From Anaerolineales bacterium (GTDB taxonomy: Bacteria; Chloroflexota; Anaerolineae; 4572-78; NAK82): a stretch of 16,731 nucleotides of DNA. Under the pieces are notes generated by a model. That model had not been told where the DNA came from. It worked only from the letters and a program-made list of their open reading frames with translations, and did no database searches. The DNA is taken from the NCBI GenBank assembly GCA_024643945.1, contig JAHELX010000064.1, positions 1-16,731 on the forward strand. The letters are read 5' to 3'. Position numbers and translations under genes: made by a program. Shown here piece by piece: positions 3,059 through 16,731 of this stretch (its first letter is position 1; each line of letters opens with the position of its first letter).

Positions 3059-4105
3059 CTATTCGGTCTCAGTCACCTTTGTGGCTCGTTCAAAGCGCCC
3101 GGCCTCGTGACCCTTCAGTTGTGCCAGGGCAAGGGAGATTATCTGGGCGGGGAGGATTTCCAAAAGCGGGCGAGCGATCTCGGGGACGGAAGGTAAAGTA
3201 AATACATCCGGGGTGAGAGATTCACCCACGAGCGCAGCCTGGCCTCCGGCGGCGCGGATATCGTCGACGAGACGGGCATTGAGGTCGGCGGTCACCTCTG
3301 CACCTGCGTATACCAGCACGAACAGATTTGGCGAAGTCATTTCCAGGGGGCCATGGCGAAAAGCCGCACTACTCATACCTTCCGCAGGAAAGCGCGCAGC
3401 TTCTTTGATGATCAGTGCCCCTGTACCCACAGCAGCCAGCGAGGGACCGCGTCCCACGAGGGCAAGGTAGCGAACGTCCGCCAGTTGTCTGCGCAAGCTT
3501 TCCAAGTACTCTGTCCAATGCGTCAGATATTGCGCCATAGCATCAGGGGCACGATCCAGCGCAACCCGGGTAGGGAGAGGGTCATGACCAGTGAGCGCAT
3601 CCCCCAGCCATGCCAGTGCAGCGAGGGCCGCCAGGTACGTTTTGCTCGAAACTGAATATTCGTTTCCGGCACGAGTGAGCAGCAGGGCATCCGATTGTAA
3701 GGCGAGAGGGCTGTCCGGGGTATTGGTCACACCGATGAGGGGAGCCTGGTCGTGCGCTCGTTCGAGCAATTGCACAGTTTCTACACTCCGGCCTGACTGA
3801 GAGACAACGATGAGGAGTGTACATGGCTCGATAAGTGCGGACGCGTAATGGACCAGTTCAGAGGTCTCAATCATGTGTGCAGAGAACCCGCGGGCTATAA
3901 GTGTGAGGGTGAGCGGATGCAGGGCATGATATGACGCCCCCATGCCGGTAAGCACCACGCGGCGCAAGTCGCCGGAGGCGAGTCGTTCGGCGAAGGGCAC
4001 TAAGGAGCGGGAATCGGACAAAGCAGCCAGAGTGTCACGTATGGCGGCGGGCTGATCGAGGATGTCACGCAAGTAGCCGCCGGGAGTGGATTGAGCGTTG
4101 GGCAT
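3059..4105 (-). CDS. SIS-domain sugar isomerase/deaminase, GlmS-isomerase-like (NagB-II type candidate)
   Basis: A 348-residue protein with two tandem SIS domains and no glutaminase domain, the layout of the isomerase half of GlmS, of fructoselysine-6-P deglycases and of the alternative GlcN-6-P deaminase NagB-II. Visible motifs: GMGASYHA (54-61) and SQSGRSVET (102-110), the phosphosugar-binding loops; SSKTY (153-157); GRGPSLA (218-224); then KEAARFPAEGMSSAAFRHGP (234-253), the counterpart of the GlmS region with the catalytic Glu and the HGP turn; and a C-terminal KVT resembling the conserved Lys of this fold. It is probably cytoplasmic. It starts 3 bases after the ROK kinase stop, with AAAGGT inside the ROK 3' end as ribosome site. 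Next to NanE and a sugar kinase, conversion of GlcN-6-P to fructose-6-P and ammonia is the best guess. Another phosphosugar deglycase or isomerase is possible. Confidence 0.85.
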   Translation of the reverse strand: MPNAQSTPGGYLRDILDQPAAIRDTLAALSDSRSLVPFAERLASGDLRRVVLTGMGASYHALHPLTLTLIARGFSAHMIETSELVHYASALIEPCTLLIVVSQSGRSVETVQLLERAHDQAPLIGVTNTPDSPLALQSDALLLTRAGNEYSVSSKTYLAALAALAWLGDALTGHDPLPTRVALDRAPDAMAQYLTHWTEYLESLRRQLADVRYLALVGRGPSLAAVGTGALIIKEAARFPAEGMSSAAFRHGPLEMTSPNLFVLVYAGAEVTADLNARLVDDIRAAGGQAALVGESLTPDVFTLPSVPEIARPLLEILPAQIISLALAQLKGHEAGRFERATKVTETE

Positions 4106-4108
4106 GAT

Positions 4109-5038
4109 TCAATACCTTTCATTGTAGCGATGAAACCAGACGCAAGCCGCACCGGCGAGGCCGACGTCCATTCCGAGGGCAGCAGGGACAAGACGTACCT
4201 TCTCAAATGGCACCAGGCCACAAGTGGCACGAATAGTTTCCAGGATCTGATCCCAAAACAAGTGCCGGCTACGCATCACGCCGCCACCGAGGGCAATCAC
4301 CTCTGGCACGAAGAGAGTGATGAGATTAGCGAGACCCAGCCCAAGATAATATCCCTCGCGTGCCACGGCTGCCTGGGCAAGGGGCTCACCCTGTTCCGCG
4401 GCGGCACAAATGCTCCGGGCGTCAAGGGATTCCAAGGTGTGAAATCCGTCCAAGGTCCCATCTCTTGTCCATTGTGCCATGGCAGGGCCGCTGGCTAAGC
4501 TTTCCCAACAGCCATAGGCACCGCAGAAACACGCCGGTCCGGAGGGATCAATCACGTGATGGCCAATCTCGGGGTGCGCACCATCCACGCCCCGATAGAG
4601 CCGGCCATCGAACACGAGACCTGCACCGATTCCGGTGCTCACAGTGACGTAGATGAAACGGGATGCGCCACGACCTGCGCCCCAGGCGGCTTCAGCTAAT
4701 GCCGCTGCGTCGGCGTCATTCTCGATAGCAGCCGGGACACCAAACCCTCGCGACAACTCACCGGCGATGTCCGCCCCTTCCCACCCTGGCAGAAACTCGA
4801 CGTCGCCGATCGTCCCGGCCAGCGGATCGACCGGGCCTGTGCAGCCTATGCCGATGCCGCGCAAGTCCCCGCCCGCGCGAGACGCTGCCTCCTGCAGCAT
4901 CGTGGTGATCCGCGCCAGGCCATCGGCCAGCCCTCGTTCAGGGGCAGTGGGACACTCGACACGAGCCAGCAGCTGCCTGGACGCGGTTACCATCCCCGCG
5001 GCTATTTTGGTACCGCCAATGTCCACCGCACCGATCAT
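4109..5038 (-). CDS. ROK-family sugar kinase
   Basis: A 309-residue ROK kinase that phosphorylates a hexose or N-acetylhexosamine with ATP in the cytoplasm. DIGGTK (6-11) is the phosphate-binding loop; GCTGPVD (65-71) is the second nucleotide motif; ENDAD (106-110) holds the catalytic-base Asp108; EIGHH (157-161) and CFCGAYGCWE (170-179) supply the sugar-binding Glu/His and the three zinc-binding cysteines; GGGV (251-254) is the adenosine motif. The open frame extends 100 codons further upstream, but that part lies inside the permease gene in another frame and is unlike any kinase. ATG at 5038 puts DIGGTK at the normal position, overlaps the permease stop as ATGA, and has AGGAG ten bases upstream. 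With nanE in the operon, ManNAc or GlcNAc are likely substrates; glucose cannot be excluded by eye. Confidence 0.93.
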   Translation of the reverse strand: MIGAVDIGGTKIAAGMVTASRQLLARVECPTAPERGLADGLARITTMLQEAASRAGGDLRGIGIGCTGPVDPLAGTIGDVEFLPGWEGADIAGELSRGFGVPAAIENDADAAALAEAAWGAGRGASRFIYVTVSTGIGAGLVFDGRLYRGVDGAHPEIGHHVIDPSGPACFCGAYGCWESLASGPAMAQWTRDGTLDGFHTLESLDARSICAAAEQGEPLAQAAVAREGYYLGLGLANLITLFVPEVIALGGGVMRSRHLFWDQILETIRATCGLVPFEKVRLVPAALGMDVGLAGAACVWFHRYNERY

Positions 5039-5877
5039 TGCTTCACTGCTCCTGCTGTCAGTCCTTCGATAAACTGCCGTTGCATAAAGAGGAACACCAC
5101 GATCATAGGCAAGGCAGCGATCGTAGAGCCGGCCATAGTCTGGGTCCAACTGACGGTGTGATACTCCTGCAGCAGGGCGATCCCCACCGGCAAAGTGCGC
5201 ATCTCCATGGAACTGGTGACGATCATCGGCCAAAGAAAGTCGGTCCAGGAGCGCACGAACATAAAGATGGCCAGAGTGGCCACGCCAGGGAGGCTCAAGG
5301 GTGCCACGATCCGCCAGAAGACCCCAAACTCTGAACAACCATCCACCCGCGCAGAGTCCAGAAGCTCATCAGGTATTGATACGATGTACTGGCGCATGAG
5401 GTATATGCCGAAGACCGATGTGGCCCCTGGCATAATGAGTGCCCAGAAAGTATCGAGCCACTTGAATATATCCATTAACTTGTAAAGGGGTATCAGATTA
5501 ACCTGGAAAGGCACCATAAGTGTTAGCAAGAGTACGAAGAAGATTTTATCGCGGCCTGGGAACTTTAACTTGGCAAAGGCATAGCCGGCCAGGGTGGCAA
5601 AGAAGGCATTGCTGAGAGTGACCATCGTGGCCACGAACACGCTATTGAAAAAGAACCTGGCAAAGGGCAAGCGTGTCCAAATCTCCACGTAGTGAACGAG
5701 CGTGACAGGTTGTGGTACCCATTCTACCGGAGAGGCGAATACATCCGCCTCCAGTTTCAGCGAAGTGCTCACCATCCAGTAGAAGGGTACCAGCATAATG
5801 ATGGAGCTGGCGATCAAAGCCAGATACAGAGTGGTTTGCCTCACCAGCCTGGTCATCCCCGTGCGGCCTATGCTCAT
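5035..5877 (-). CDS. Carbohydrate ABC transporter permease, MalG-like
   Basis: A 280-residue inner-membrane protein with about six hydrophobic segments, starting with one at about residues 15-37. The cytoplasmic EAA loop that docks on the ATPase is visible at about 171-195 (ELLDSARVDGCSEFGVFWRI, then VAPL), typical of the MalG/UgpE (CUT1) type. The C-terminus EGLTAGAVKQ is also characteristic of MalG-like permeases. It follows the MalF-like partner by 34 bases and overlaps the ROK kinase start by 4 bases (ATGA), implying translational coupling. The chosen ATG at 5877 is the first in-frame start after an upstream stop at 5886-5884. Its own Shine-Dalgarno is poor (AGGGG at a long distance), which may be explained by coupling to an 11-codon reading frame just upstream. 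Confidence 0.95.
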   Translation of the reverse strand: MSIGRTGMTRLVRQTTLYLALIASSIIMLVPFYWMVSTSLKLEADVFASPVEWVPQPVTLVHYVEIWTRLPFARFFFNSVFVATMVTLSNAFFATLAGYAFAKLKFPGRDKIFFVLLLTLMVPFQVNLIPLYKLMDIFKWLDTFWALIMPGATSVFGIYLMRQYIVSIPDELLDSARVDGCSEFGVFWRIVAPLSLPGVATLAIFMFVRSWTDFLWPMIVTSSMEMRTLPVGIALLQEYHTVSWTQTMAGSTIAALPMIVVFLFMQRQFIEGLTAGAVKQ

Positions 5878-5909
5878 CGCGGCTCATCCCCTGATGCCGT
5901 TTCGATCAT
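5874..5909 (-). CDS. Possible 11-codon coupling ORF (MIETASGDEPR)
   Basis: In the 34-base gap between the two permeases, GAGGAGTG is followed five bases later by ATG at 5909 and 11 codons (MIETASGDEPR). Its TGA overlaps the MalG-like ATG as ATGA (5877-5874). The MalG start has no good ribosome site of its own, so ribosomes may load here and restart. It could equally be chance; the peptide itself probably has no role. Confidence 0.3.
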   Translation of the reverse strand: MIETASGDEPR

Positions 5910-5911
5910 AT

Positions 5912-6787
5912 TCACTCCTCCCGGCCAAAAAACCTGATCTGGAGAATAGAGAACACAGCCAGTATCGCGAAAAGGACATAGGCGATGGCTGATGCATATC
6001 CAAACTTCATGTAGGTGAAATTGCGAAAGAGGTGTCCCACGATAGATTGGGTGCTGTAAATAGGGCCGCCCGCCGTCATTACATAGATCTGGTCAAACAC
6101 CTGGTAACTGCCAATAATGCCGATGATATATATCATGACGATGACTGGCTTGAGACTGGGAAGGGTGACGTGCCAGAACCTGTTCCAGGCATTGGCTCCA
6201 TCTATCATCGCCACCTCGTAAAGTTCCCGGGGGATTGCCTGCAGGGCAGCCAGAAAGATCACCGTCTCAAAGCCGAAACCCTGCCACACACTGGCAACGA
6301 TGATGGCCAGAAGTGCCGTGTCGGGATTCGCCAGCCATCGCGTGGTGGGCAGACTGATTGCCCCTAACACAGTATTCACCAGCCCTCCCTGGCTGTAGAG
6401 CATCTTCCAAACGGTGGCCACCACTACCATAGCCGTCATGTAGGGTAGAAAGTAGATGGTCCGGAAACCAGCTCGGAATTTTATCTTCCGGTTGAGAGCC
6501 AGAGCGGAGATCAGTCCCAATACGGGCCCAGTACCTTGCCCCAATATTACAAAGATAGTGGTGTTGACAAACGCCTTTACGAATTTGGGATCACCGAAGA
6601 TGAGTTTTCGATAGTTGGCTAGGCCGACAAACTCAGGAGGTTGAATGCCGCTCCACCTGGAGAAGCTGAAAACAAAAGAGCTGAGCATAGGGACGAAGAG
6701 GAAGATCACCGTACTTATCACTGGAACGGAGATGAAGAGGTAGGCTAGATAATACTTCTTTATGGTTGTACCAAGGCTACGGTCCAT
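5912..6787 (-). CDS. Carbohydrate ABC transporter permease, MalF-like
   Basis: A 291-residue inner-membrane protein with about six membrane segments; the first spans about residues 13-33 (LAYLFISVPVISTVIFLFVP). The EAA loop lies at 189-210 (ELYEVAMIDGANAWNRFWHV, then TLP), as in CUT1-family MalF/UgpA permeases, and YQVFDQIYVMTAGGP (228-242) is another hallmark of the family. An upstream in-frame ATG at 6820 would add 11 residues, but ATG at 6787 has a perfect AGGAGG five bases before it and gives the usual short N-terminus, so I chose it. It pairs with the MalG-like permease and the binding lipoprotein encoded just upstream. No ATPase gene is in the window, so the transporter probably shares a MsmX/UgpC-type ATPase encoded elsewhere. 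Confidence 0.95.
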   Translation of the reverse strand: MDRSLGTTIKKYYLAYLFISVPVISTVIFLFVPMLSSFVFSFSRWSGIQPPEFVGLANYRKLIFGDPKFVKAFVNTTIFVILGQGTGPVLGLISALALNRKIKFRAGFRTIYFLPYMTAMVVVATVWKMLYSQGGLVNTVLGAISLPTTRWLANPDTALLAIIVASVWQGFGFETVIFLAALQAIPRELYEVAMIDGANAWNRFWHVTLPSLKPVIVMIYIIGIIGSYQVFDQIYVMTAGGPIYSTQSIVGHLFRNFTYMKFGYASAIAYVLFAILAVFSILQIRFFGREE

Positions 6788-6792
6788 CGAAG

Positions 6793-6798
6793 CCTCCT
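6793..6798 (-). promoter_or_regulatory. Ribosome binding site that decides the MalF-like start
   Basis: AGGAGG lies five bases before ATG at 6787. The alternative upstream ATG at 6820 lies only about 20 bases after the intercistronic hairpin and has no comparable site. Confidence 0.8.
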
Positions 6799-6834
6799 GA
6801 GTATTAAGAATGACCCGCACTCAGGTATAGGGAA

Positions 6835-6861
6835 GCGAAGGGGGCGGAGCACCCCCTTCGC
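6835..6861 (-). other. Perfect 10-bp intercistronic hairpin between binding protein and permease genes
   Basis: GCGAAGGGGG (6835-6844) and CCCCCTTCGC (6852-6861) form a perfect, very GC-rich stem with a 7-base loop. It lies 23 bases past the stop of the binding-protein gene. On the minus strand it is followed by TTCCCTATACC, not a U-tract, so it is unlikely to be a full intrinsic terminator. By analogy with the malE-malF REP structures, it may block 3'-exonucleases or cause partial termination, so that the binding protein is made in excess over the permeases. Confidence 0.8.
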
Positions 6862-6884
6862 CGGAAAAGCCCTCTCTTCTGTGA

Positions 6885-8198
6885 TTATTCTGCCAGGAGA
6901 GCGTTGGCCTCGACAGCGGCGTCGTCCAGAGCCTCTTGTACTGTTTTCGCCTCCAGCAACGCTGAGGCAACCGCTTCATCGATGACTGCGGATATCTCAT
7001 TCCACTGGCGAACGTAAGGGAAGTGGTGCGCCGTCTCCGTAGCTTGCAGAAATAGAGGCAAGGTTACCTGATCGCCAAAGTATGGATCCGCCTTGCTCAC
7101 CTCGTCGCTCTCCAGGGCGGCCTTGAGCCCCGGTGCGGCGCCAGCGTTCTCGTAGACGCCGATGGCGTTATCCAGCCGCAGTGCAAACTCAATGAACTTC
7201 CAGGCGGCTTCCTTGTTGGCAGCCCCGGCAGGGATCACCAGGCCTGTCCCGCCCAGGTAGGAGCCCGGTTGGTCCTTGTAGGGGTGCCGGGCTACCTTCC
7301 ACATCCCCTCCATCTCGGGAGCGCCGTCTTTCAGCACCCCCATCATGTAGGGGCCATCGGAGAACATAGCGATCGTCCCATCTTTGAGGAGTTGCATGAA
7401 GGATTCTTCGCCGATATCAAAGGCGAACTGATGCTGGTTAGCCATGTCGACGAAGAACTGGGTTGCCTCCACGCCTTCGGCGCCGTTGAAGATGGCTTCC
7501 GTGTTGTCGGGATTGAGGATCTCGCCCCCGCTCTCGTAGAGGAACTGGGCCCAGCGGAAAGTTTCAGGCCAGTAGCCGTACAGATACTTGTCCGGCGTAC
7601 CATCACCATCGCTATCCTCCGCTAACTGCTGCCCAACCTCAACCAATTCGTCCCAGTTGGTGGGCACCTCCAATCCCTTCTCCTCGAAGAGGTCGGACCG
7701 GTAGTAGAGAGAATAGACGTCGAAGTCCTCGAGTATGGTGACGACCTGGCCCTCATAAGACATAGCCTCCAGCGCGCCGGCGGTGAAAGCCTGGCTGAGG
7801 GGAACTCCATTGAGCTGGCCTCCGGAGAACGTGTCCAGCTCGGTGAAGCCACCTAACGCTGCCCAGGTAGGAACCCACGTCATGTCCACGGTCGCCACGT
7901 CAGGCGCTGTATCGGTCGTCAGGGCCACACTCAGCTTCTCGAACATAGAGTCCCAGTTTAACGCCTCATACTCCACCTTGATGCCCGGATTCTCCACCTC
8001 AAAGGCCGCGATCATCTCAGGCTGGAAGGGGGTGGCGGTACCGTAGTAGTCCCAGACCTTGATAGTTGTGACTTCCTCCGCTGGCGATGCCTCTGGCTCT
8101 TCGGTCTTAACCGGAGGGGCTTGGGTGGCTGGCGCTCTGCAGCCTACTAAAACCATCAACAAGCACACACTGAGTAGAATAATGATGAATGTTCTCAT
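6885..8198 (-). CDS. Carbohydrate ABC transporter substrate-binding lipoprotein
   Basis: A 437-residue family-1 (MalE/UgpB-like) extracellular solute-binding protein. The N-terminus MRTFIIILLSVCLLMVLVGC is a lipoprotein signal peptide with lipobox LVGC; Cys20 is the expected lipidation site. A short Pro/Glu-rich linker follows, then TTIKVWDYYGTA (the first strand of the fold) and DTAPDVATVDMTWVP (about 95-109), typical of this family. The later GGTGLVIPAGAANKEAAWKF segment is also typical. It sits on the outer face of the membrane and hands sugar to the two permeases encoded downstream. The start at 8198 has AAGGAGGT six bases upstream, a strong site consistent with high expression. The roughly 145-base gap before it (8199-8344) shows no clear promoter, so it is probably read from upstream. 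The sugar bound cannot be read directly; context favours an amino-sugar oligosaccharide. Confidence 0.95.
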   Translation of the reverse strand: MRTFIIILLSVCLLMVLVGCRAPATQAPPVKTEEPEASPAEEVTTIKVWDYYGTATPFQPEMIAAFEVENPGIKVEYEALNWDSMFEKLSVALTTDTAPDVATVDMTWVPTWAALGGFTELDTFSGGQLNGVPLSQAFTAGALEAMSYEGQVVTILEDFDVYSLYYRSDLFEEKGLEVPTNWDELVEVGQQLAEDSDGDGTPDKYLYGYWPETFRWAQFLYESGGEILNPDNTEAIFNGAEGVEATQFFVDMANQHQFAFDIGEESFMQLLKDGTIAMFSDGPYMMGVLKDGAPEMEGMWKVARHPYKDQPGSYLGGTGLVIPAGAANKEAAWKFIEFALRLDNAIGVYENAGAAPGLKAALESDEVSKADPYFGDQVTLPLFLQATETAHHFPYVRQWNEISAVIDEAVASALLEAKTVQEALDDAAVEANALLAE

Positions 8199-8344
8199 CT
8201 TCGACCTCCTTACTGGTTAGGTGCCTGAAACACTTGATCTTGGGGCGATCCGCTTCACTCGTCTAAACATTTCCGATGGGAACCACCCCCTTTCTATGCG
8301 TCGTGAAAGCCAGCTCCTGTGGGCGATGCAAGCTGATACCTTTC

Positions 8345-10429
8345 CTATGTTTCTGCTTCCCATTCCACTACCGCGCCCCCGTACCCATCCATATCCATCT
8401 TCCAGGAACGCCCCTCGTGGGTGATGGGTTGAGAGCCGGAAACTGTGATAAGGACCACCGACCGGAGTGTCTGGCGAGCGGTGACGGTGACGGATTGCGG
8501 CTCCGGTCGGTGGTTGGCGAGGATAGCGTACCCACGCCCCTGGCCCAGGAGCGCGGCCACTTCGACCCATGGCTGGTCGGTGACAAACATTGGCGTGAGC
8601 CCAGCCCATATCCGCAGAGCACGATAGAGCCTATGGGTGCTCTCCTGGCCTTCAAAAGCCGATGGTCTGACAGCCAGGTGACTTTCCAGTGGATAAGCAG
8701 AGAGCAGGACGTGACCTTTCCCGAACGTGTTGGCGACCAGCGCGGGCCGCTCCCCTTGGTCGGTGGCGATGACCCGCCCGCCAGCAAGCTCCAGAGTTGC
8801 AGGCCAGTGCCGGGGATTGGCGCCGTCGGCCCGGTAGTGGAATGTCTCGCCCACGGCCAGGTCGCCGAAGGGAACAGCCACGGTGAGGGTCACCTCCTCC
8901 ACCGGGACGTGGTCGGCCAACGTCGCGCCGAACAAGTCATTCATATCCGGGATGGCGGCATCGGCACAGAGCGAGGCGTACACTGCCCCACCGCTTCGTA
9001 CATAGTCGCGCACTCTATCCCAGAAGCTGGTGTGGACGTGGACCAGGTTGCGCTCGGTGCTGGTGAGGGGCGAGGGCAAGAGCAAGAGTGGGCGTGTCCC
9101 CCAGTCGGCATACTCTCGCGGCAGGTCGACTTTGAGGCCGGCGCGGCGGGCCAGGATAAACGCCGCAAGAAGTGATCCGGTGAGCCATACGTTGGCGCCC
9201 CACCTGCTTCGATCTGTGAGAACTGCGTAGGGATCAAGGGTGCCCCCTCCCTCTTGCACAGAGACGTAAGGGACAATGCTGGGGCCGCTGAGGCCGAGGC
9301 GGGCGAAGTCGCCGTGCGGCTTGGACCATTCGTGCGGGACGACGAGTGCCGCCTCGGCCGGCCCAGGTTCGACCCCACCCAGGTCCATCTGGGCCAGGAT
9401 GCGGCTGAACGCGCGCACCTCACGGCCGGCGGGACGATCTTTTCTGTCCCAGGTAGTCAGGCCGAACTGCGTCTCGTGCGGGGCGCGCAGGTACGGCACG
9501 CGCTTGAACGTCTCGGGGGCAGCGTCGGTGTAGCACCAGGGGAGGAAGCCATTGGCTCCGGCAGCCAGGGAGGAGTACATCGTCACCCGGTCGAAGTGCG
9601 CGATGCGTTCCGGGCTGTATTGTGCGGACGAGGCACCTAACTCGTGAACCATCACTGGCCTGCCCGCACCGGCCGAGAGCGCCGTCTGGAATGCGCCGCA
9701 GTATGTGCCACGCTCGGAGAGCATGGGATCGGGGAAGCGATCCATGGTGTAGATGGAATAGGGATGAACGGAGAAAAAGTCTACCTCGGCCGCGATGTTG
9801 TCTGGCCGGAAGGGGCCGTGATTGAGGTCTTCCATGCTCGTGCCCACACACAACAAGTGCTCGGGGTCATGACGACGCAGAGTCCCGGCAACCAGGCGTG
9901 TCCAGTTGATGGCCATAGCGTCGGTTGTTTGCGCGCTCACGATCCAGAAGGGTGGCTCATCGGTCAAGTCCCATGCCAGGATGGCCGCTTCCCCGCGATA
10001 GCGGCGAGCGAACTCAGCAGCGTGGTCGGTCTGCAGGCGCAGCATCTCGGGGTCGGCGTGGGGGTGACGGCCTTGCCGCCACGGCACGTCCCAGAAGGCC
10101 TCACCCACCTCGCCGCCGATGAACAAGGTGGGATGCAGGTAAATCTCGTACTTGTGCGCCAGGCGGATGAAGAAGTCAAACTGCTGGAAGGCCTCGGGGT
10201 TATAATCACCGGGGCGTGGCTCAAACCATGCCCAGAACAAATCGAAGCGAACAATGTTGAAGCCGAGATCCTGCATCTTGATGAAGTCGGCTTCGACGTC
10301 AGCCTCGTCCCATTGGTACGGCCATTGAAGCGCGGCTTTGGCGGGTACCCAATGGGCGCCGATGGGCACGAAGCGTTGGCCGTTCGCGGAGAAGTAGTTG
10401 CCTTCCAGGGTGACCGGATGAAGAGCCAT
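8345..10429 (-). CDS. Cytoplasmic glycoside hydrolase, clan GH-A-like (GH5/GH42-like barrel with C-terminal domains)
   Basis: A 694-residue protein without a signal peptide, so it should act on imported oligosaccharides. The first 350 residues look like a clan GH-A TIM barrel: GFNIVRFDLFWAWFEPRPG (56-74) early, WDLTDEP (153-159) with probable acid/base Glu158 after strand 4, FFSVHPYS (218-225), and VMVHELGAS (259-267) with probable nucleophile Glu263 after strand 7. Residues about 400-580 (LLLLPSPLTSTERNL, WDRVRDYVRSGGAVYAS, GKGHVLLSAYPLE) resemble the glutamine-amidotransferase-like trimerisation domain of GH42 beta-galactosidases, and the last 80 residues look all-beta. The exact CAZy family is uncertain, so beta-galactosidase, beta-mannosidase or beta-N-acetylhexosaminidase-like specificity cannot be separated by eye. 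The start at 10429 has AGGAG nine bases upstream, 25 bases after DUF4127. Confidence 0.85.
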   Translation of the reverse strand: MALHPVTLEGNYFSANGQRFVPIGAHWVPAKAALQWPYQWDEADVEADFIKMQDLGFNIVRFDLFWAWFEPRPGDYNPEAFQQFDFFIRLAHKYEIYLHPTLFIGGEVGEAFWDVPWRQGRHPHADPEMLRLQTDHAAEFARRYRGEAAILAWDLTDEPPFWIVSAQTTDAMAINWTRLVAGTLRRHDPEHLLCVGTSMEDLNHGPFRPDNIAAEVDFFSVHPYSIYTMDRFPDPMLSERGTYCGAFQTALSAGAGRPVMVHELGASSAQYSPERIAHFDRVTMYSSLAAGANGFLPWCYTDAAPETFKRVPYLRAPHETQFGLTTWDRKDRPAGREVRAFSRILAQMDLGGVEPGPAEAALVVPHEWSKPHGDFARLGLSGPSIVPYVSVQEGGGTLDPYAVLTDRSRWGANVWLTGSLLAAFILARRAGLKVDLPREYADWGTRPLLLLPSPLTSTERNLVHVHTSFWDRVRDYVRSGGAVYASLCADAAIPDMNDLFGATLADHVPVEEVTLTVAVPFGDLAVGETFHYRADGANPRHWPATLELAGGRVIATDQGERPALVANTFGKGHVLLSAYPLESHLAVRPSAFEGQESTHRLYRALRIWAGLTPMFVTDQPWVEVAALLGQGRGYAILANHRPEPQSVTVTARQTLRSVVLITVSGSQPITHEGRSWKMDMDGYGGAVVEWEAET

Positions 10430-10454
10430 AAGAACAGACTCCTAAATTGGAAAG

Positions 10455-12116
10455 TCAGTTAAATTTAACCTGCACATTGAAGCCGACTTCGAAGAGCCGC
10501 TGCCACGGGAGATAAACGTTGTCCACGTGAACTTCGCGGACCAGGCCGGAGCGCAGGAAGAGATCGCGCAGCTCGGCGGCGGCACGCGTGAGGCGATCAC
10601 GAACACGGACCTGAACAGCGGCGGCCCGGTCGGGGTCGGGCAGGTGCTCCTCGGTGGGTGAGAGACCGAGAGCAGGCAAATCCTCCACCAGACAGCGCGT
10701 GCGCTCGCGCGCCTGATAGAAATAGTCGTCGAGAAAACGGAGAAACAAGAACGCAAAGTGCGCGGCCCGTTGCTCATGCGTGGGGTCAGAACGGAGCGCC
10801 AGGGCACGAATGACGGCTTGAGCTAGCACCGTGCCCAGCGTGTTGCCGGCTGTGTTCCAGCCACCGTAGGCCGCGAGGTTCACGACCTCGGGATGTTGGA
10901 GGAGAAGGTTACCCAGTATGAGATCGGCTCCGTTGACGAAGGCCACGTCGGCCAGGGCCACCGGGTGGTCGGAATCCAGCGCCGCCAGCAGGGCGCGGAC
11001 GAACTCCTCAGGGCTGCGGCGTGGTGTCTGCATTTCGCGGCGGGTGATGCGCAGGCCCTCGTCGGCGGCAAATCCGTCAAGGTAGGTATGAAATTCCGGC
11101 GGTAGTTGCGCGCGGATGGCGTCCAGCCCCTGCCACACCAACCACTGATACGAGCCCCATCCCTGCGCCCCGGCGGGCGCGTTGATAAAGAGCATAAGAT
11201 CGGCACTGTCCGGCGAGTCCGCAACCACTCCGCCCAGCGGCCCTAGGTGCGCCTTGAGCAGTTCGTGGATGGGGCGGTCTTCGTAAGAAGTAACGACGGC
11301 AGGCCCACTCACGCTGGAATAGCGCGGCCAAATTCTGGGCGAAAAACCCATCCTCTGGCAGGCATAACGCGCCAGGAGCAGACAGCCAATCTCGTCCGCG
11401 CCAGGATAGGTGATGGCGCGCTCGGTAAGGCCGCGGGCGCGAATCATCGCCTGTAAGTCGCGTGCCTCAGCGATGTTCCAGCCGTAGTCGGCTGTGTCGT
11501 CCTGGGGAAGGAGAAGGTAATCGAATACCCCTTCAGCCAGCCAGTCCAGCATAGTGCGATTCACGGCATGGTTGCGCGCCCGGCCCTGGCGATAGTCTGT
11601 GTAAACCTCGGTGGGAATCTCTGTCTGCAGAGAATGCCGTTCGGTGATCTCGGCGGCGGAGGCCTCTCCGAGTTCGACCTTGTGTTCAAGGTAGGAGAGC
11701 CGGAACATGCGGCTTCCATACGTCCCCCAATAGGGTTTCTCTTCTTCGCTGGCGTCAGCGCGTGAGATGCGCATGATGACGTTGAAAGCGAGGATGGGCT
11801 GTTGGGGACGGGCTGTTTTGAGATCACGTAGAATGGTGAGGCGATCCAGCACAACCTCGACGGGTTCAGATGAGGTGCGTGAAGGGATGAGGCCACCATA
11901 AGCCAACGTATCAATGGCCACAATGAGCGAGTCGGCTTCGAGCGCAGTCTGTGCCAGCCAGTCCACAAGGTCGGCGTGCCGGCTTACACGCCAGGGATTG
12001 CCCAACCACTCGCGTGGCGGGAGCAGGATCTCCAGACCCGCTGCTCGGGCGAGATAGCGCGGGTAGTCGTAGTTGACAGGACGGTCATCCAGTGGCAGAA
12101 CAGCGATACGCGTCAT
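10455..12116 (-). CDS. DUF4127 family protein (unknown function)
   Basis: A 553-residue protein matching DUF4127 over its whole length. Conserved-looking blocks are PLDDRPVN (8-15), DTLAYGGL (69-76), MRISR (115-119), QDDTADYGWN (205-214), YPGADE (237-242), and near the C-terminus FVNGAD followed by YGGWNTAGNTLG, a hallmark of the family. It has no signal peptide or membrane segment, so it is probably cytoplasmic. The number of Asp/Glu in the conserved blocks would suit a metal-dependent enzyme; that is inference, since no activity is established to my knowledge. An in-frame ATG at 12158 would add 14 residues inside nanE; ATG at 12116 overlaps the nanE stop as ATGA and starts with the family's usual opening, so I chose it. 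Coupling to nanE suggests a role in amino-sugar or glycan breakdown. Confidence 0.9.
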   Translation of the reverse strand: MTRIAVLPLDDRPVNYDYPRYLARAAGLEILLPPREWLGNPWRVSRHADLVDWLAQTALEADSLIVAIDTLAYGGLIPSRTSSEPVEVVLDRLTILRDLKTARPQQPILAFNVIMRISRADASEEEKPYWGTYGSRMFRLSYLEHKVELGEASAAEITERHSLQTEIPTEVYTDYRQGRARNHAVNRTMLDWLAEGVFDYLLLPQDDTADYGWNIAEARDLQAMIRARGLTERAITYPGADEIGCLLLARYACQRMGFSPRIWPRYSSVSGPAVVTSYEDRPIHELLKAHLGPLGGVVADSPDSADLMLFINAPAGAQGWGSYQWLVWQGLDAIRAQLPPEFHTYLDGFAADEGLRITRREMQTPRRSPEEFVRALLAALDSDHPVALADVAFVNGADLILGNLLLQHPEVVNLAAYGGWNTAGNTLGTVLAQAVIRALALRSDPTHEQRAAHFAFLFLRFLDDYFYQARERTRCLVEDLPALGLSPTEEHLPDPDRAAAVQVRVRDRLTRAAAELRDLFLRSGLVREVHVDNVYLPWQRLFEVGFNVQVKFN

Positions 12117-12805
12117 CGGCGATCTTTCAAACTCTCCACAAAGCGTTCGGTGATCCAATGTGGGCGGGTGATGGCACTGCCCACCACCACGGCGTATGCG
12201 CCGAGTTCGAGGGCACGTCTGGCCTGCTCTGGGGTGGCGATGCGACCCTCGGCGATAAGTGGTACCGGAAGAGCCAGAGCGAGCTGATGGACGAGCTCGA
12301 AATCAGGACCATCCTGCGTGGGACTGTCGTCGGTGTAGCCGGAGAGTGTCGTGGCGACCGCGTCGGCGCCGGCGGCGGCGGCGGCAAGACCTTCTTCCAC
12401 GTTGGCGACGTCTGCGATGACCGGGCAGCCAATGGCCCTGTGTACGTAGGCGATCAAGTCGGCGGCGGTGACCCCACCTGGACGCGCCCGGGTTGTGGCG
12501 TCGAGGGCGATCAGGTCCGCCCTGGCGTCGGCGACTCGCCGGGCGTGATCAAAGGTAGGAGTGATGCGAACTTCGAAGCCAGGTAGATCAACCTTGTAGA
12601 TGCCAATGATCGGGATGGTGATGGCAGCCCGGATGGCGGCGATGTTGGCCGGGCCGTTGGCGCGAATGGCCACGGCGCCACCTGCGGCAGCAGCGCGCGC
12701 CATAGCGGCCATAAAGACTGGGCCGTGCAGCGGTTCATATAGCTCGGCCTGGCAGGAGACGATGATGCCGTGGCGAAGTTTCGCCAGCAGTGTCTGGAGT
12801 GGCAT
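12113..12805 (-). CDS. nanE: N-acetylmannosamine-6-phosphate 2-epimerase
   Basis: A 230-residue TIM-barrel epimerase that converts ManNAc-6-P to GlcNAc-6-P in the cytoplasm. It opens like other NanE proteins (LLAKLRHGIIVSCQA), followed by AIRANGPANIAAIRA (Arg in the substrate loop), PIIGIYKVD with the probable catalytic Lys (family knowledge), ALDATTRARP with the conserved Asp, ADVANVEEGLAAAAAGADAVATTLSGYT, and LIAEGRIATPEQARRALELGAYAVVVGSAITRP, the phosphate-binding end of the barrel. An upstream in-frame ATG at 12826 adds 7 residues; ATG at 12805 is preferred because AGGTG lies five bases before it and the resulting N-terminus matches the family. It overlaps DUF4127 by 4 bases. It is the most specific clue to the pathway: N-acetylmannosamine is an intermediate. 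No NanA (sialate lyase) gene is in the window. Confidence 0.94.
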   Translation of the reverse strand: MPLQTLLAKLRHGIIVSCQAELYEPLHGPVFMAAMARAAAAGGAVAIRANGPANIAAIRAAITIPIIGIYKVDLPGFEVRITPTFDHARRVADARADLIALDATTRARPGGVTAADLIAYVHRAIGCPVIADVANVEEGLAAAAAGADAVATTLSGYTDDSPTQDGPDFELVHQLALALPVPLIAEGRIATPEQARRALELGAYAVVVGSAITRPHWITERFVESLKDRR

Positions 12806-12836
12806 AGGATCACCTTTTAGTGTCATAGCCCGTAGC

Positions 12837-13661
12837 TCAGGGTCTCCGAATGAGCAAGTGGCTGAACTCTACCCAAGTCTCGTCCCCTGAACCTGGCACA
12901 ACCTCAACGAAGAGACCAACTGAATCCATGCCTGATGGGACATTCGTCACCTTTGTGACTTCCACATCGTTCACATAGAAGGCCAGCGTTGACCCAACAG
13001 CGCTTACGCTGATTCGGTTGGTGTCGGCGATGTTGACACTTGAAAAGGTAGTCGGCTCTTGAATAAACTCAGGCTGCGGCGCGGGCGGTTGTTCTTCTAC
13101 GAATACAGAGTACACGCCGTCAGAATCAAGGGCAAAGTAATATCTGATTTCATAGCTTGACCGATCAACACAGATTCCATATCCTATCCCGGCCGCCCTG
13201 GACTCAGATCTGGCGTCGAGGCTGAAGTGAAAATCGGCGAAGGCACGCTTGGGAACAGGAAGGCAATACCTCATCAGCCCCGCAAAAGGGACGACGGCGG
13301 CGGTTCTGGCAGCTCGCAGCTTTCCGCCAGTAAAGGACCAATCCAGCCAGCGCGACTGAATGGAATTCAGGTCCCAGCCATTGACGTTCGAGCTAAGATC
13401 ATCAATGAATAAGAGCTCGTCGGCAGTAGCGGTAGCCTGGTATTGTTGAGCGACATCCCAGTCTGACACCGGTTGCAGAATGGCGGTCCGGGCTTTACTC
13501 TTAGACGAATCCTGACCTATACGGGCCGGGCTGAAATGCGCGCTGATCATGACCAGGACGATGATCCCCGCCAAGCCAGCGACACCCACGGTTAAGATCG
13601 GGGTGAATCTCCTGGTTGCTCCTGGGTCTACCCTTTTTGTCCTGCGAGCTTGCTTGGCCAT
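12837..13661 (-). CDS. Membrane-anchored LamG/concanavalin-like domain protein
   Basis: A 274-residue protein with a basic N-terminus (MAKQARRTKRVDPGATRRF), one membrane helix (about residues 19-43) and a large outside domain. From about residue 85 (FIDDLSSNVNGWDLNSIQSR) to the end, the pattern (DDLSSNxNGWD, FSLDARSESRAAGIGYGICV, YYFALDSDGVYSV, ISVSAVGSTLAFYVNDVEV, VGLFVEVVPGSGDETWVEFS) is that of a concanavalin-like/LamG beta-sandwich of the DUF1080 style, often carbohydrate-binding. No catalytic residues are evident. An in-frame ATG at 13694 would lie in the loop of a strong hairpin; ATG at 13661, with AAGGA seven bases upstream, is more likely. Lying between the exported DUF4434 protein and nanE, it may hold glycan at the cell surface, but an enzyme is not excluded. 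Confidence 0.72.
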   Translation of the reverse strand: MAKQARRTKRVDPGATRRFTPILTVGVAGLAGIIVLVMISAHFSPARIGQDSSKSKARTAILQPVSDWDVAQQYQATATADELLFIDDLSSNVNGWDLNSIQSRWLDWSFTGGKLRAARTAAVVPFAGLMRYCLPVPKRAFADFHFSLDARSESRAAGIGYGICVDRSSYEIRYYFALDSDGVYSVFVEEQPPAPQPEFIQEPTTFSSVNIADTNRISVSAVGSTLAFYVNDVEVTKVTNVPSGMDSVGLFVEVVPGSGDETWVEFSHLLIRRP

Positions 13662-13676
13662 AGCGCAGTCCTTGGG

Positions 13677-13713
13677 TGGACGAAGCCCTTCCATGAACGA
13701 AGGGCTTCGTCCA
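13677..13713 (-). other. Perfect 15-bp intercistronic hairpin
   Basis: TGGACGAAGCCCTTC (13677-13691) and GAAGGGCTTCGTCCA (13699-13713) are exact inverted repeats with a 7-base loop. The structure begins 23 bases after the stop of the DUF4434 gene and ends 15 bases before the chosen ATG of the next gene, just upstream of its ribosome site. No U-run follows on the minus strand, so transcripts may be partly terminated or protected at this point, favouring the exported protein. Confidence 0.85.
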
Positions 13714-13736
13714 TCTGTGGAGGCGGTCTAATGGCG

Positions 13737-15233
13737 TCAACCGGTGATAGAATCGCAGGTCTCGACGTTCGCTCCGGGATCGTAGGTCAACCCATCCTTA
13801 ACCACGTTTGTCACGCAGAACGTATAGGTTAGTACATCCCGCATCTTGTAGTTGAAGAAGTGGGCCACGCCACTGGTATTGGTGTCGGCGTACTGATCCA
13901 GATTATTTACGTCCCAATGACCGTAGACCCGCGCCCCGACCACCGGCTGCCCGTAATCGTCCACAATTGTCACGTTGGCATGGGCTTCGTGGTTGACCCC
14001 TCCCAGGACGATCCACATGTCAATTGCGGAGACGTGCATGCCTTGCCCAGCTTGGGGCGTATTGGTCGGCGTGGGAGTAGGTGTGTTGGTCGGCGTCGGG
14101 GTGGGTGTGTCGGTGGGCGTTGGGGACGGACCCTCAGTGGGCGTCGGCGTCGGCCCTTCCAGGGTAGGTGTGGGCGTTGGCGTCCCCGATCGGACGCTGT
14201 CTACATAGTTTTTGTAGCCGTTGTAGTAGACCGGATCCCAACCCCACTCGGGAGACATGGCCTCGATGAAGGAGTAGGTGATGATTTTGTCTACATAGGG
14301 GTACTCGGCCTGGTGCTGGTCTATGATGCGCTGCGTGGGGGCCGGCTTCAGATGGTTGGTTCCTATGAAGTTCTCCAGATCGCTCCAACAGAGCTTCCCG
14401 GCGGCCCATACGCCGGCGCACACGTGTTGATACCACGTGGGGAGTTGATCAATCGTCGCGTGCCCGACACCAATGCCATCCTGCAACATCAGGATATCCA
14501 CGCTCGTCTGGCTCATGATGTCGTACCAGAACAGCTCCCATTGCTCTGGCGTCGCCCCCCCGTTAGTGTTGAAGAAGGGAGCGATGCTGGAGGGCAGTGC
14601 CGGGTTCAGGGTATCCAGGTGCTGGGAGACTGTATTGAGCGCAGTGATCATGTTCTGCTTTTCGTCCGGATACCAGTTGTACCCGGCATAGTTGTCCATC
14701 TCCCAGTTGATGTACCAGCCAGCAAACGTGTTCGGGTAGCGGCTAAAGTAGTTGGCGTACAACTCGTCCGCGACGGCGTTCATCTCCGCCGCTTCGCCCA
14801 GCAACCAGTTGAGGTCGGTGCCTTCCTTGTGCCACCATTGGCTGTTGAAGACGAGACCCATAAAGACCTTGAAGCCAAACCGATCGGCCGTTGCCAGCGC
14901 CGTCTCGACTTGGTCGTACGTCGAAGATTGGGAATAGCCGGGAATGTTGGTGGGATAGATGGTGGTGTTTGCCTTAGAGTCACCCGTCCATTGGTAAATC
15001 CACAGCGTCATATCGACGTTTTGCATATACGTGAATTCGCTGTCCCACTGAGCCTGGGTGGTGTACTTGTCCACGGTCCAAGGTTGGGTGAAGCTGCCCT
15101 GACTCCACGGGTCGGCGGGGCCGCCGGCCTGGACGGAAGCCGGGGGGTCAGACCAGGGAGTCCCAACAATGCCGAAGAGCATCGCGAGGCTTATCAGTAT
15201 CAGGAACCACTTACGAAAGGTCGAGTGTTGCAT
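13737..15233 (-). CDS. Exported DUF4434 glycoside-hydrolase-like protein with Thr-Pro linker and C-terminal Ig-like domain
   Basis: A 498-residue secreted protein. Residues 1-36 are a signal peptide (MQHSTFRKWFLILISLAMLF then a likely cut after SVQA). Residues about 45-345 match the DUF4434 TIM-barrel family (GSFTQPWTV, EFTYMQNVDMTLWIYQW, GFKVFMGLVF, FAGWYINWEMDN, WSDLENF), which is related to clan GH-A hydrolases. Glu178 in NWEMDN and Glu287 in DLENF stand where an acid/base and a nucleophile would be expected, but this is a guess from position. Residues 351-393 are a Thr-Pro-rich linker, followed by a beta-rich domain (about 400-498) with VTIVDDYGQPVVGARV, like Ig-like or carboxypeptidase-regulatory domains. 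An upstream ATG at 15248 lies inside the ribosome site; ATG at 15233 has GGGAGG seven bases before it. It is the first enzyme-like gene after the regulator, probably acting outside on the glycan. Confidence 0.85.
   Translation of the reverse strand: MQHSTFRKWFLILISLAMLFGIVGTPWSDPPASVQAGGPADPWSQGSFTQPWTVDKYTTQAQWDSEFTYMQNVDMTLWIYQWTGDSKANTTIYPTNIPGYSQSSTYDQVETALATADRFGFKVFMGLVFNSQWWHKEGTDLNWLLGEAAEMNAVADELYANYFSRYPNTFAGWYINWEMDNYAGYNWYPDEKQNMITALNTVSQHLDTLNPALPSSIAPFFNTNGGATPEQWELFWYDIMSQTSVDILMLQDGIGVGHATIDQLPTWYQHVCAGVWAAGKLCWSDLENFIGTNHLKPAPTQRIIDQHQAEYPYVDKIITYSFIEAMSPEWGWDPVYYNGYKNYVDSVRSGTPTPTPTLEGPTPTPTEGPSPTPTDTPTPTPTNTPTPTPTNTPQAGQGMHVSAIDMWIVLGGVNHEAHANVTIVDDYGQPVVGARVYGHWDVNNLDQYADTNTSGVAHFFNYKMRDVLTYTFCVTNVVKDGLTYDPGANVETCDSITG
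14055..14183 (-). repeat. Thr-Pro linker coding repeat
   Basis: The DNA is a low-complexity run of G/T-rich 6-base steps (ggcgtg, ggtgtg, ggcgtc on the plus strand) that encodes about 43 residues of alternating Thr-Pro with a few Glu, Gly, Ser, Asp and Asn. It joins the hydrolase-like and Ig-like domains. Such tracts are prone to length change by slippage. Confidence 0.85.
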
Positions 15234-15275
15234 GTTGTGTCCTCCCATATGCCCTATCAGGTTGCAGACTTCGGT

Positions 15276-15317
15276 TCAGTTAAAGCTCAGTGCCCTGCAC
15301 TGAAAGGATTGGGACAT
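15276..15317 (-). CDS. Possible 13-codon leader peptide (MSQSFQCRALSFN)
   Basis: AGGAGG (15329-15324) lies six bases before ATG at 15317, as good a ribosome site as any in the window. The frame encodes MSQSFQCRALSFN and stops at 15276, 42 bases before the DUF4434 start. The 7-bp hairpin lies inside the frame, so a translating ribosome would open it. No codon run points to a specific amino-acid signal. It may be a chance match or the relic of a start. Confidence 0.35.
   Translation of the reverse strand: MSQSFQCRALSFN
15287..15303 (-). other. Perfect 7-bp hairpin in the regulator/DUF4434 gap
   Basis: TCAGTGC (15287-15293) and GCACTGA (15297-15303) form an exact inverted repeat with a 3-base loop, 44 bases after the regulator stop. 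On the minus strand GCTTTAAC follows, a weak T-rich tail. It may be an attenuating hairpin or a protein-binding site. It lies within a 13-codon reading frame. Confidence 0.6.
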
Positions 15318-15346
15318 AGTCAACCTCCTGGCGCAGATGATTCAGC

Positions 15347-16120
15347 TCAACTTATCCCTTCCGCATTGCCTTCCTCCCGAAAGCGAAAGAAGAATCTACA
15401 CTTATCCCCCCGGGTCACCGACCAGGAATATTCGATCGGTGTGTCGTCTTCGGTGAACGCCACTACCTCGCTCAACAGCGCCGGCGCCCCCGGTTCTGCC
15501 TCCAGGAATTGCGCTTCCTGTGCGGTGAGCAGAACCGGCTCCAACGTCTGGTCCATGGCGACGACCGTCGTCTGATAGCGCTCGCTCAAGCACTCGTACA
15601 GGGAACAACTACCCAGATTGGCTTCGATTAGATTCGGAAAACGTGCCTGGGAGAGATAGGCGGTTTCCAGCATAATCGGCTCTTCATTGGCGAGCCGCAC
15701 CCGGACGAGTTCGATGACGGGGTCGGCCACCTCCAACCCAAGGTGTGTCGCTACCTCGGCCGCAGCCGGAATAACCTTCACGCTGATCAGGCGACTGCTC
15801 GGCGTCCGGCCAATCTGCCGCATTTTCTGGGTGAAACCCAGCCTGCTGGGGACGATTTGCGCCATTGTAGGGTTGGCGACAAACGTCCCCACGCCATGCC
15901 GTCGGATGAGCCAGCCCTCACGAGCCAGTTCGTCCAACGCGCGCCGGACGGTGAGGCGACTCACACCGTACAGATCGCTCAGTTCCCATTCCGAAGGTAC
16001 CCCCTGACCAGGCTGCAATTGGCTACTTGTGATCAGTTCTCTGAGGTTCTGGGTAATCTGGTGATAAAGTGGCAACTTTGTATGACGGTCAATTCTAATA
16101 AGGTCTTTCCAGTCTTTCAT
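15347..16120 (-). CDS. GntR-family (HutC subfamily) transcriptional regulator
   Basis: A 257-residue cytoplasmic DNA-binding regulator. Residues about 12-83 are the winged helix of GntR proteins (LPLYHQITQNLRELI, then PSEWELSDLYGVSRLTVRRA, and the wing EGWLIRRHGVGTFVA). Residues about 90-247 are a UTRA ligand-binding domain, which senses a small effector such as a phosphosugar in NagR/DasR-type relatives; the ending PIEYSWSVTRGDKCRFFF is typical. The length (about 240-260) is normal. It is the first gene of the operon, directly behind a strong promoter with a palindromic operator over the start site, so autoregulation and local control of the operon are likely. GlcNAc-6-P or GlcN-6-P would be a sensible inducer given nanE and the SIS gene, but that is inference. 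No strong Shine-Dalgarno precedes ATG at 16120, which may keep the regulator level low. Confidence 0.93.
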   Translation of the reverse strand: MKDWKDLIRIDRHTKLPLYHQITQNLRELITSSQLQPGQGVPSEWELSDLYGVSRLTVRRALDELAREGWLIRRHGVGTFVANPTMAQIVPSRLGFTQKMRQIGRTPSSRLISVKVIPAAAEVATHLGLEVADPVIELVRVRLANEEPIMLETAYLSQARFPNLIEANLGSCSLYECLSERYQTTVVAMDQTLEPVLLTAQEAQFLEAEPGAPALLSEVVAFTEDDTPIEYSWSVTRGDKCRFFFRFREEGNAEGIS

Positions 16121-16127
16121 GTTAGAA

Positions 16128-16151
16128 GTATTGTCCTCTAGATGTCAATAC
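16128..16151 (-). promoter_or_regulatory. Palindromic operator over the transcription start
   Basis: A 24-base near-palindrome with 10 of 12 positions paired: outer arms GTATTG (16128-16133) and CAATAC (16146-16151), core TCTAGA (16137-16142), with one further C/G pair between. It starts one base after the -10 element and ends seven bases before the regulator's ATG. A dimeric GntR protein bound here would block the start site. I did not find a second copy elsewhere in the window. Confidence 0.75.
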
Positions 16152-16152
16152 A

Positions 16153-16181
16153 AGTATAACCAAAGAAAGTTCTTTTGTCAA
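16153..16181 (-). promoter_or_regulatory. Sigma70-type promoter of the glycan operon
   Basis: On the minus strand a perfect -35 TTGACA (16181-16176) is followed after exactly 17 bases by TATACT (16158-16153), one base from the -10 consensus. Transcription should start near 16146, about 26 bases before the regulator ATG. It is the strongest promoter in the window and the only clear one upstream of the operon. Confidence 0.88.
16162..16175 (-). promoter_or_regulatory. Second inverted repeat in the promoter spacer
   Basis: AAAGAA (16162-16167) and TTCTTT (16170-16175) form an exact inverted repeat with a 2-base centre, filling nearly all of the spacer between -35 and -10. It could be a second regulator site, or simply A/T-rich spacer DNA. 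Confidence 0.5.
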
Positions 16182-16271: not shown

Positions 16272-16731
16272 TTACCGCAGATATTTGCGATTGATTTTCG
16301 CCACGTAGGTATACAACGGATCAACAAACTGGGTGCAGCGTGCTTCGAGCACCTGGCCCAGCAACAGGAACGCCTCTCGTTCATCCATGGGGTAGCTGTC
16401 GGCCAGCCAGTAGATCAACTGCTCGGTCGCGATGCGGAAAGCATCTTCAGCCGGGCGCGCACAGCCGACGGCTGTCAAGTGCGTGTCATCAACGATGCGC
16501 GGCCAACTCATGCGCTCCGGCCTGGGCTCCAGATTGACTGTCAACGTGACCTCCGCCCGGCACTCGATGCCGCCGCCACAATTGATTTCACCGTCGCCCT
16601 GGATGGCATGAACGTCGCCGATGTGCAGGAGTGCTCCAGGCACGTTGACCGGCAGGTAGACCGTTGCGCCGGGACAGACCTCCTGCACGTCCATGTTGCC
16701 CCCATATTGTCCGGGCCAGGCGTTGCTGAAT
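16272..16731 (-). CDS. Acetamidase/formamidase family protein (N-terminal part cut by window edge)
   Basis: The C-terminal half (about 153 residues) of an FmdA/AmdA-type amidase, which hydrolyses formamide or acetamide to the acid and ammonia. The frame is open to the right edge: the first visible residues are FSNAWPGQYGGN, before the first internal Met, so ATG at 16694 is not the true start. Family marks are GQYGGNMDVQEVCPGATVYL and LLHIGDVHAIQGDGEINCGG, the metal/active-site region of this family. Full members are about 300 or more residues, so roughly half is missing. It is separated from the regulator by 151 bases with its own inverted repeats and the operon promoter, so it is probably a separate unit. 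A role in handling amide or acetyl groups from the amino-sugar pathway is only a guess. Confidence 0.88.
   Translation of the reverse strand, partial: FSNAWPGQYGGNMDVQEVCPGATVYLPVNVPGALLHIGDVHAIQGDGEINCGGGIECRAEVTLTVNLEPRPERMSWPRIVDDTHLTAVGCARPAEDAFRIATEQLIYWLADSYPMDEREAFLLLGQVLEARCTQFVDPLYTYVAKINRKYLR

Follow-up and report, generated by a model that had tools for sequence, protein, structure and literature searches.

As far as the available text of one account goes (PMC10017367), sialic acid is broken down by two routes, namely NanA-NanK-NanE, as in Escherichia coli (nanA/K/E), and NanL-AGE-RokA, as in Bacteroides fragilis (NanL/NanE-II(AGE)/RokA). These routes have an epimerase (NanE or AGE), a ROK kinase, a transporter, and a regulator in common with a putative eleven-gene operon on a 16,731-nucleotide (nt) stretch of an Anaerolineales bacterium (Chloroflexota; contig JAHELX010000064.1; hereafter the window). 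Unlike either route, this operon has a gene for DUF4127, a widespread, conserved family of unknown function, in place of NanA, together with an ATP-binding cassette (ABC) importer and other hydrolases. Many sugar-uptake operons have this shape, but to our knowledge none has an enzyme that yields N-acetylmannosamine (ManNAc) without sialic acid. The first-pass annotation of the window had proposed an operon for a ManNAc-type glycan. Broadly, this idea is right, and comparison with relatives now supports it; its notable part is DUF4127, a family that would thereby be tied to one metabolite. On balance, we favor the interpretation that the operon would import and degrade a ManNAc-containing polysaccharide, from which DUF4127 would free ManNAc in the cytoplasm.

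DUF4127 and two unrelated epimerases

The window encodes a DUF4127 protein next to NanE, and the NanE identity given by the first-pass annotation is confirmed by family scores (Table 1). Related loci were sampled by keeping the best 80 of the 483 genome loci in which a relative of DUF4127 is encoded. NanE is encoded in the examined DNA of 48 of these 80 loci (E. coli NanE as query recovers the same 48), and in 20 loci it lies on the same strand as DUF4127, at most 200 nt away or overlapping. In five other loci (L001, L002, L003, L011, and L017), the gene immediately before DUF4127 encodes an AGE-type epimerase (N-acetylglucosamine (GlcNAc)/ManNAc 2-epimerase), which is unrelated to NanE; NanE was found in none of these five genomes. 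By score, the L001 AGE is a GlcNAc/ManNAc 2-epimerase (640.8 bits to 2gz6 and 303.1 bits to 1fp3), an identity scored for this protein alone, the other four being matched only to the L001/L003 AGE and that of L003 also to PF07221. A cellobiose epimerase was ruled out for L001 (best such enzyme, 96.6 bits vs. 640.8 bits). In the DUF4127 tree, the AGE label requires two changes, which are forced by well-supported branches, and the window's protein is placed beside four Opitutaceae proteins with moderate support (89/81). The constant partner of the epimerase is DUF4127, rather than the hydrolases.

Among 396 genomes of the class to which the relative G002 belongs, DUF4127 occurs in 19 and NanE exceeds its cut-off in 53 (two barely). 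NanE is present in 17 of the 19 genomes with DUF4127 (all but G198 and G326) compared with 36 of the 377 others (Fisher p = 1.6e-14, uncorrected for relatedness), and in 12 of those 17 both genes are on one contig within 8 kb. In protein listings, the lengths of the longest contigs agree for seven DUF4127-hydrolase pairs and three DUF4127-DUF4434 pairs, which fits linkage weakly. Because NanE and AGE alternate beside DUF4127 as they do in the known sialate routes, and the lyase is absent, DUF4127 probably supplies ManNAc, as a protein predicted to yield the free sugar in the cytoplasm. A signal-like N-terminus was found in only one of 83 DUF4127 proteins of relatives, an extra copy in L026. 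Within the window, the N-termini of the DUF4434 protein and the sugar-binding lipoprotein (SBP) are strongly hydrophobic, and those of DUF4127, NanE, the GH5/GH42-type (glycoside hydrolase) enzyme, ROK, and SIS are not. Since DUF4127 is paired with either of two unrelated epimerases, its function is directly testable.

As the first-pass annotation had stated, the operon encodes neither NanA nor NagA; these and an ABC ATPase are absent from the window proteins scanned (14 against Pfam and 10 against NCBIfam). The E. coli NanA query matched none of the 80 loci, and the corresponding NagA and NagB queries matched three and one, respectively. Among the genomes of eight relatives, nagA exceeds its cut-off in six, located elsewhere in the genome, and nanA in none, at a strict cut-off that only 1 of 14 controls passes. 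There is nothing unusual about the missing NagA, since nagA lies elsewhere in those six relatives and E. coli NagA and NagB are likewise encoded outside the nan operon (PMC10017367, available text). Of the two sources suggested earlier for the NagA step, a gene elsewhere is thus supported and an unassigned protein of the operon is needless. A NagA-like role for DUF4127, for which no deacetylase resemblance was found, is needless as well. An ordinary sialate operon with nanA elsewhere in the genome is very improbable: NanA/DapA-like genes do match at E = 0.001 in seven of the eight relatives, but the best of them reaches 235 bits against a cut-off of 382, and the sole match in G002 has 94 bits.

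DUF4127 might also be a lyase unrelated to NanA that produces ManNAc from a sialate-like nonulosonate, which would make this a sialate-type operon. It does occupy the place of NanA or NanL in the two known pathways (PMC10017367, available text), and BNR sialidase-type genes exceed the cut-off in the genomes of 7 of 11 relatives. However, in other loci the hydrolases that accompany DUF4127 are of the GHL10, GH84-type, DUF4855, and similar families; the 25 neighbor families listed of 111 (90 of 214 neighbors) include none of sialidases; and BNR_2 has no match in G007, nor in G426 and G427 (two of the four other Opitutaceae genomes with DUF4127 and AGE). A lyase function is therefore considered distinctly improbable. 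The earlier claim that ManNAc would come from a polysaccharide rather than from sialic acid is favored by the NanA searches, by the NanE/AGE swap, and by the membership of the DUF4434 protein in the YbcH family; the sialidase-type genes speak against it. The swap and the YbcH family membership make a ManNAc-containing polysaccharide a likelier substrate.

Several points weigh against ManNAc release by DUF4127. Neither epimerase is nearby in 27 of the 80 loci; 25 of these lie in 24 searchable genomes, 21 of which encode NanE elsewhere and three of which lack it entirely. The class-wide association may include an effect of relatedness. DUF4127 matches no glycosidase by sequence in Pfam, and Foldseek gave no significant hit to a solved structure for its predicted model (E = 0.001). 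For NanA, the loci were searched with one E. coli sequence; the flanks covered 10 kb or less, in some cases much less, and no NanA-positive locus served as a control. The sialidase-type genes of the relatives also count here, as does the ROK kinase, which would be needed as the ManNAc kinase and falls outside the clade of the ROKs beside other NanE-DUF4127 pairs.

The DUF4127 model has a predicted local distance difference test (pLDDT) score of 97. Its VIA comparison returned only common alpha/beta arrangements, and its one weak PDB match (E = 0.1) is an isoaspartyl dipeptidase. A wider proposal is put forward tentatively, at somewhat less than even confidence: DUF4127 may be a new enzyme family, perhaps with a fold absent from solved structures, that frees ManNAc from imported oligosaccharides; Chloroflexota, Bacillota, Verrucomicrobiota, and Armatimonadota would then have a third entry to ManNAc catabolism in addition to NanA and NanL; and the DUF4434 family, including YbcH, may consist of ManNAc-polymer hydrolases. 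No mention of DUF4127 or DUF4434, and no use of the words mannosaminidase or N-acetylmannosaminidase, was found in the open PMC literature.

In Bacillota, a flavin adenine dinucleotide (FAD)-dependent oxidoreductase (PF12831) is a frequent neighbor of DUF4127, with one cluster in 22 of the 80 loci and another in 7 (for example, L058:14212-15795 and L031:8613-9971). Genes of esterase type (AXE1, S9-like) and sulfatase genes are also found beside DUF4127 (L013:12448-16018 and L001:8692-10149), hinting at decorated ManNAc glycans. Many of the Bacillota carriers are Paenibacillus and Bacillus, whose cell-wall polysaccharides can contain ManNAc, and the locus could accordingly recycle ManNAc from the cell's own envelope glycans rather than from foreign polymers. 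This is unlikely, given that the ABC importer, the secreted DUF4434 protein, and the substrate-type GntR suggest external uptake and that the relatives of the window are environmental Chloroflexota.

Two modules and the proposed pathway

The operon unites two modules that occur apart from each other in relatives. In L005, a divergent pair of units, GntR-NanE-DUF4127 and GntR-GH5/42-SBP-permease-permease-ROK-SIS, takes the place of the single run of the window, and L004 has the same arrangement as far as its contig reaches. The hydrolase-ABC-ROK-SIS module stands alone in G221, and G221, G130, G146, and G355 are all missing from the sets of genomes exceeding the cut-off for NanE or DUF4127. The window GntR is closest to the module-side regulators (G221, 320 bits; G130, 315 bits; G355, 307 bits) and scores 223–244 bits against the NanE-side regulators of L004, L005, and L006. 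Additionally, the SBP and permeases closest to those of the window lie between NanE and DUF4127 in the Bacillota loci L021, L025, and L045, a gene order that also links transporters of this type with ManNAc.

The module hydrolase most resembles an exo-beta-mannosidase, and its activity is predicted from sequence and model. The GH5 exo-beta-1,4-mannosidase Op5Man5 (7bob) is its best match by sequence (98.1 bits with a profile; next best, 30) at 20% identity. Op5Man5 is also the top match by fold (E = 1.1e-28; template modeling (TM) score on the target, 0.79) for a model of pLDDT 76, with GH42 enzymes nearly equal (1.6e-28) and GH164 close. The ROK protein belongs to the kinase family named by the first-pass annotation, but is only a candidate ManNAc kinase: it reaches 131.3 bits against the NanK cut-off of 450, scores higher with a glucokinase-type model though likewise below its cut-off (181 vs. 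260 bits), and groups at 100/100 with the ROKs of the hydrolase-ABC module (L005 and G221). The SIS protein is of the double-SIS family as annotated, and it may be the suggested NagB-II deaminase, although it scores below that cut-off (NF046059; 83 bits vs. 430). It resembles the GlmS isomerase domain in that both contain a pair of SIS domains covering the same region and their AEG and RHGPLE stretches align; it differs from GlmS and NagB-II in scoring below every NCBIfam cut-off and in lacking a glutaminase domain. Because the module is separable and its hydrolase is most like an exo-beta-mannosidase, ROK and SIS are no more than candidates for action on ManNAc or glucosamine.

These patterns leave room for two branches of catabolism. 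GntR, the GH5/GH42-type enzyme, the transporter, ROK, and SIS would handle beta-mannosides (mannose to mannose-6-phosphate to fructose-6-phosphate) or glucosamine, and DUF4434, NanE, and DUF4127 would be additions that process the ManNAc portion of a heteropolymer common to both branches, with ROK and SIS not serving ManNAc. The solitary module of G221, the genomes that carry the module without NanE or DUF4127 over the cut-off (nagA exceeds its cut-off in one of these four), the mannosidase-like hydrolase, and the ROK clade all fit this scheme. So does the gene beside SIS in G146, which encodes a PfkB kinase; in G355, it is a ROK. Conversely, the operator pattern described below is common to NanE-side GntR genes (G001 and G002) and module GntR genes (G221 and G130), suggesting one inducer class; the metagenome-assembled genomes may be incomplete; and GH42 galactosidases match the hydrolase fold almost equally well. 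Two branches are a serious possibility that we place a little short of even, and since this scheme overlaps with ManNAc polysaccharide degradation by the whole operon, the two do not exclude each other.

For the favored interpretation, degradation of a ManNAc-containing polysaccharide, the following pathway is proposed. The polymer would be cut outside the cell by the exported DUF4434 protein, and the oligosaccharides would be imported by the binding lipoprotein, two permeases, and an ATPase encoded elsewhere. DUF4127, most probably a glycosidase of a new type, would free ManNAc in the cytoplasm, where a second sugar, probably beta-manno-configured, would be removed by the GH5/GH42-type enzyme. 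A kinase, for which ROK is the sole candidate in the window, would convert ManNAc to ManNAc-6-phosphate (ManNAc-6-P), NanE would convert this to GlcNAc-6-phosphate, and NagA encoded elsewhere together with the SIS protein or a NagB would complete the conversion to fructose-6-phosphate. The whole operon would be controlled by GntR through one operator.

DUF4434 and YbcH of E. coli

The DUF4434 protein of the window and E. coli YbcH (235.1 bits; PF14488 cut-off, 30) belong to the same family. According to the available text of two reports, the glycan of the E. coli nfrBA-ybcH exopolysaccharide operon is proposed to be ManNAc-based (PMC8669472), and YbcH is a putative scaffold in the view of its authors and dispensable for N4 infection (PMC8669469). 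The nfrBA-ybcH operon makes and exports its glycan, whereas that of the window would import and degrade one. The 15 DUF4434 sequences compared, YbcH included, all share the residues E183, D257, and E292, and a solved relative (4h41; E = 2.3e-10) is labeled a putative alpha-L-fucosidase. Both proteins are read as hydrolases because of these acidic residues and the label of 4h41: the window protein is a probable glycan hydrolase, and YbcH may hydrolyze glycans instead of serving as a scaffold. The window also points to a substrate class for DUF4434 and YbcH, which in E. coli belongs to the phage N4 receptor glycan system. DUF4434 of the window type is rare near DUF4127, being found in 4 of the 80 loci (L004, L035, L056, and L076; the last two weak, 24–25 bits). 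The ybcH gene of E. coli K-12 (L081:3092-3982) keeps the three invariant acidic residues.

Operon layout, control region, and flanking genes

The eleven long open reading frames (ORFs) run on the minus strand from the GntR start (16120) to the SIS end (3059), with intergenic distances in this order of 98, 42, 10, -10, 25, 146, 97, 34, -13, and 3 nt (Table 1). The largest gap, between the hydrolase and SBP genes, contains neither an inverted repeat nor a promoter-like site with 11 of 12 matches. The promoter (TTGACA-17-TATACT, about 33 nt upstream of the GntR start) is the sole site in the window with at least 11 of 12 consensus matches, compared with an expected mean of 0.03 per window in 60 first-order simulations. 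ORFs, gaps, and promoter agree with the earlier description of eleven same-strand genes behind one strong promoter, and this layout suggests a single co-transcribed unit.

Adjoining the promoter, ACTTGTATTGACATC lies inside an imperfect palindrome centered on TCTAGA and, together with it, is the probable GntR operator. The operator pattern occurs once in the window and in 0 of 200 shuffles. It was composed after inspection of the relatives G001, G002, G221, and G130, and in 170 loci it was found in eight, corresponding to these four genomes, where it precedes GntR. A second copy in G221 lies upstream of the hydrolase gene.

Table 1. Features of the putative operon and its control region in the window.
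Feature	Position	Strand	Basis
Sigma-70-type promoter, TTGACA-17-TATACT	16153..16181	-	11/12 matches
Probable GntR operator, ACTTGTATTGACATC and imperfect palindrome	16128..16155	-	Pattern common to 4 relatives' genomes
GntR/UTRA regulator	15347..16120	-	PF00392, PF07702
Exported DUF4434 protein, probable glycan hydrolase, YbcH family	13737..15248	-	PF14488, 198.8 bits (cut-off 30); hydrophobic N-terminus
Membrane-anchored protein without family	12837..13694	-	No Pfam/NCBIfam match; hydrophobic stretch near N-terminus
NanE, ManNAc-6-P 2-epimerase	12113..12826	-	PF04131, 207.3 bits (cut-off 27); NF002231, 287.7 bits (cut-off 189)
DUF4127 protein, proposed ManNAc-releasing enzyme	10455..12122	-	PF13552, 466.5 bits (cut-off 27); NanE/AGE coupling; model pLDDT 97
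GH5/GH42-type exo-glycosidase, predicted; no signal peptide	8345..10429	-	PF02449, PF00150; nearest Op5Man5 (7bob)
SBP, sugar-binding lipoprotein of ABC transporter	6885..8198	-	PF01547 (SBP_bac_1), 123.6 bits
ABC permease 1	5912..6787	-	PF00528 (BPD_transp_1), 67.7 bits
ABC permease 2	5035..5877	-	PF00528 (BPD_transp_1), 72.8 bits
ROK sugar kinase	4109..5047	-	PF00480, 235.5 bits; tree
Double-SIS sugar-phosphate isomerase or deaminase, GlmS-like	3059..4105	-	PF01380; 82 bits to GlmS 1moq

On the 3' side, the operon is followed by a 330-nt gap with only a weak terminator-like stem and then by genes for a thiamine pyrophosphate (TPP)-dependent enzyme (1067-2728) and a glycosyltransferase-like protein (3-1046) on the same strand, which are probably a separate unit. 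Repeats of the CGTGAAACGT type lie downstream of the operon at 2762-2803, and in G221 (L163:11645-11713) a similar repeat with inverted arms is located between the genes for GntR and the hydrolase. Just upstream of the operon, the 3' end of an acetamidase/formamidase-type gene (PF03069) is present on the same strand at 16272-16730.

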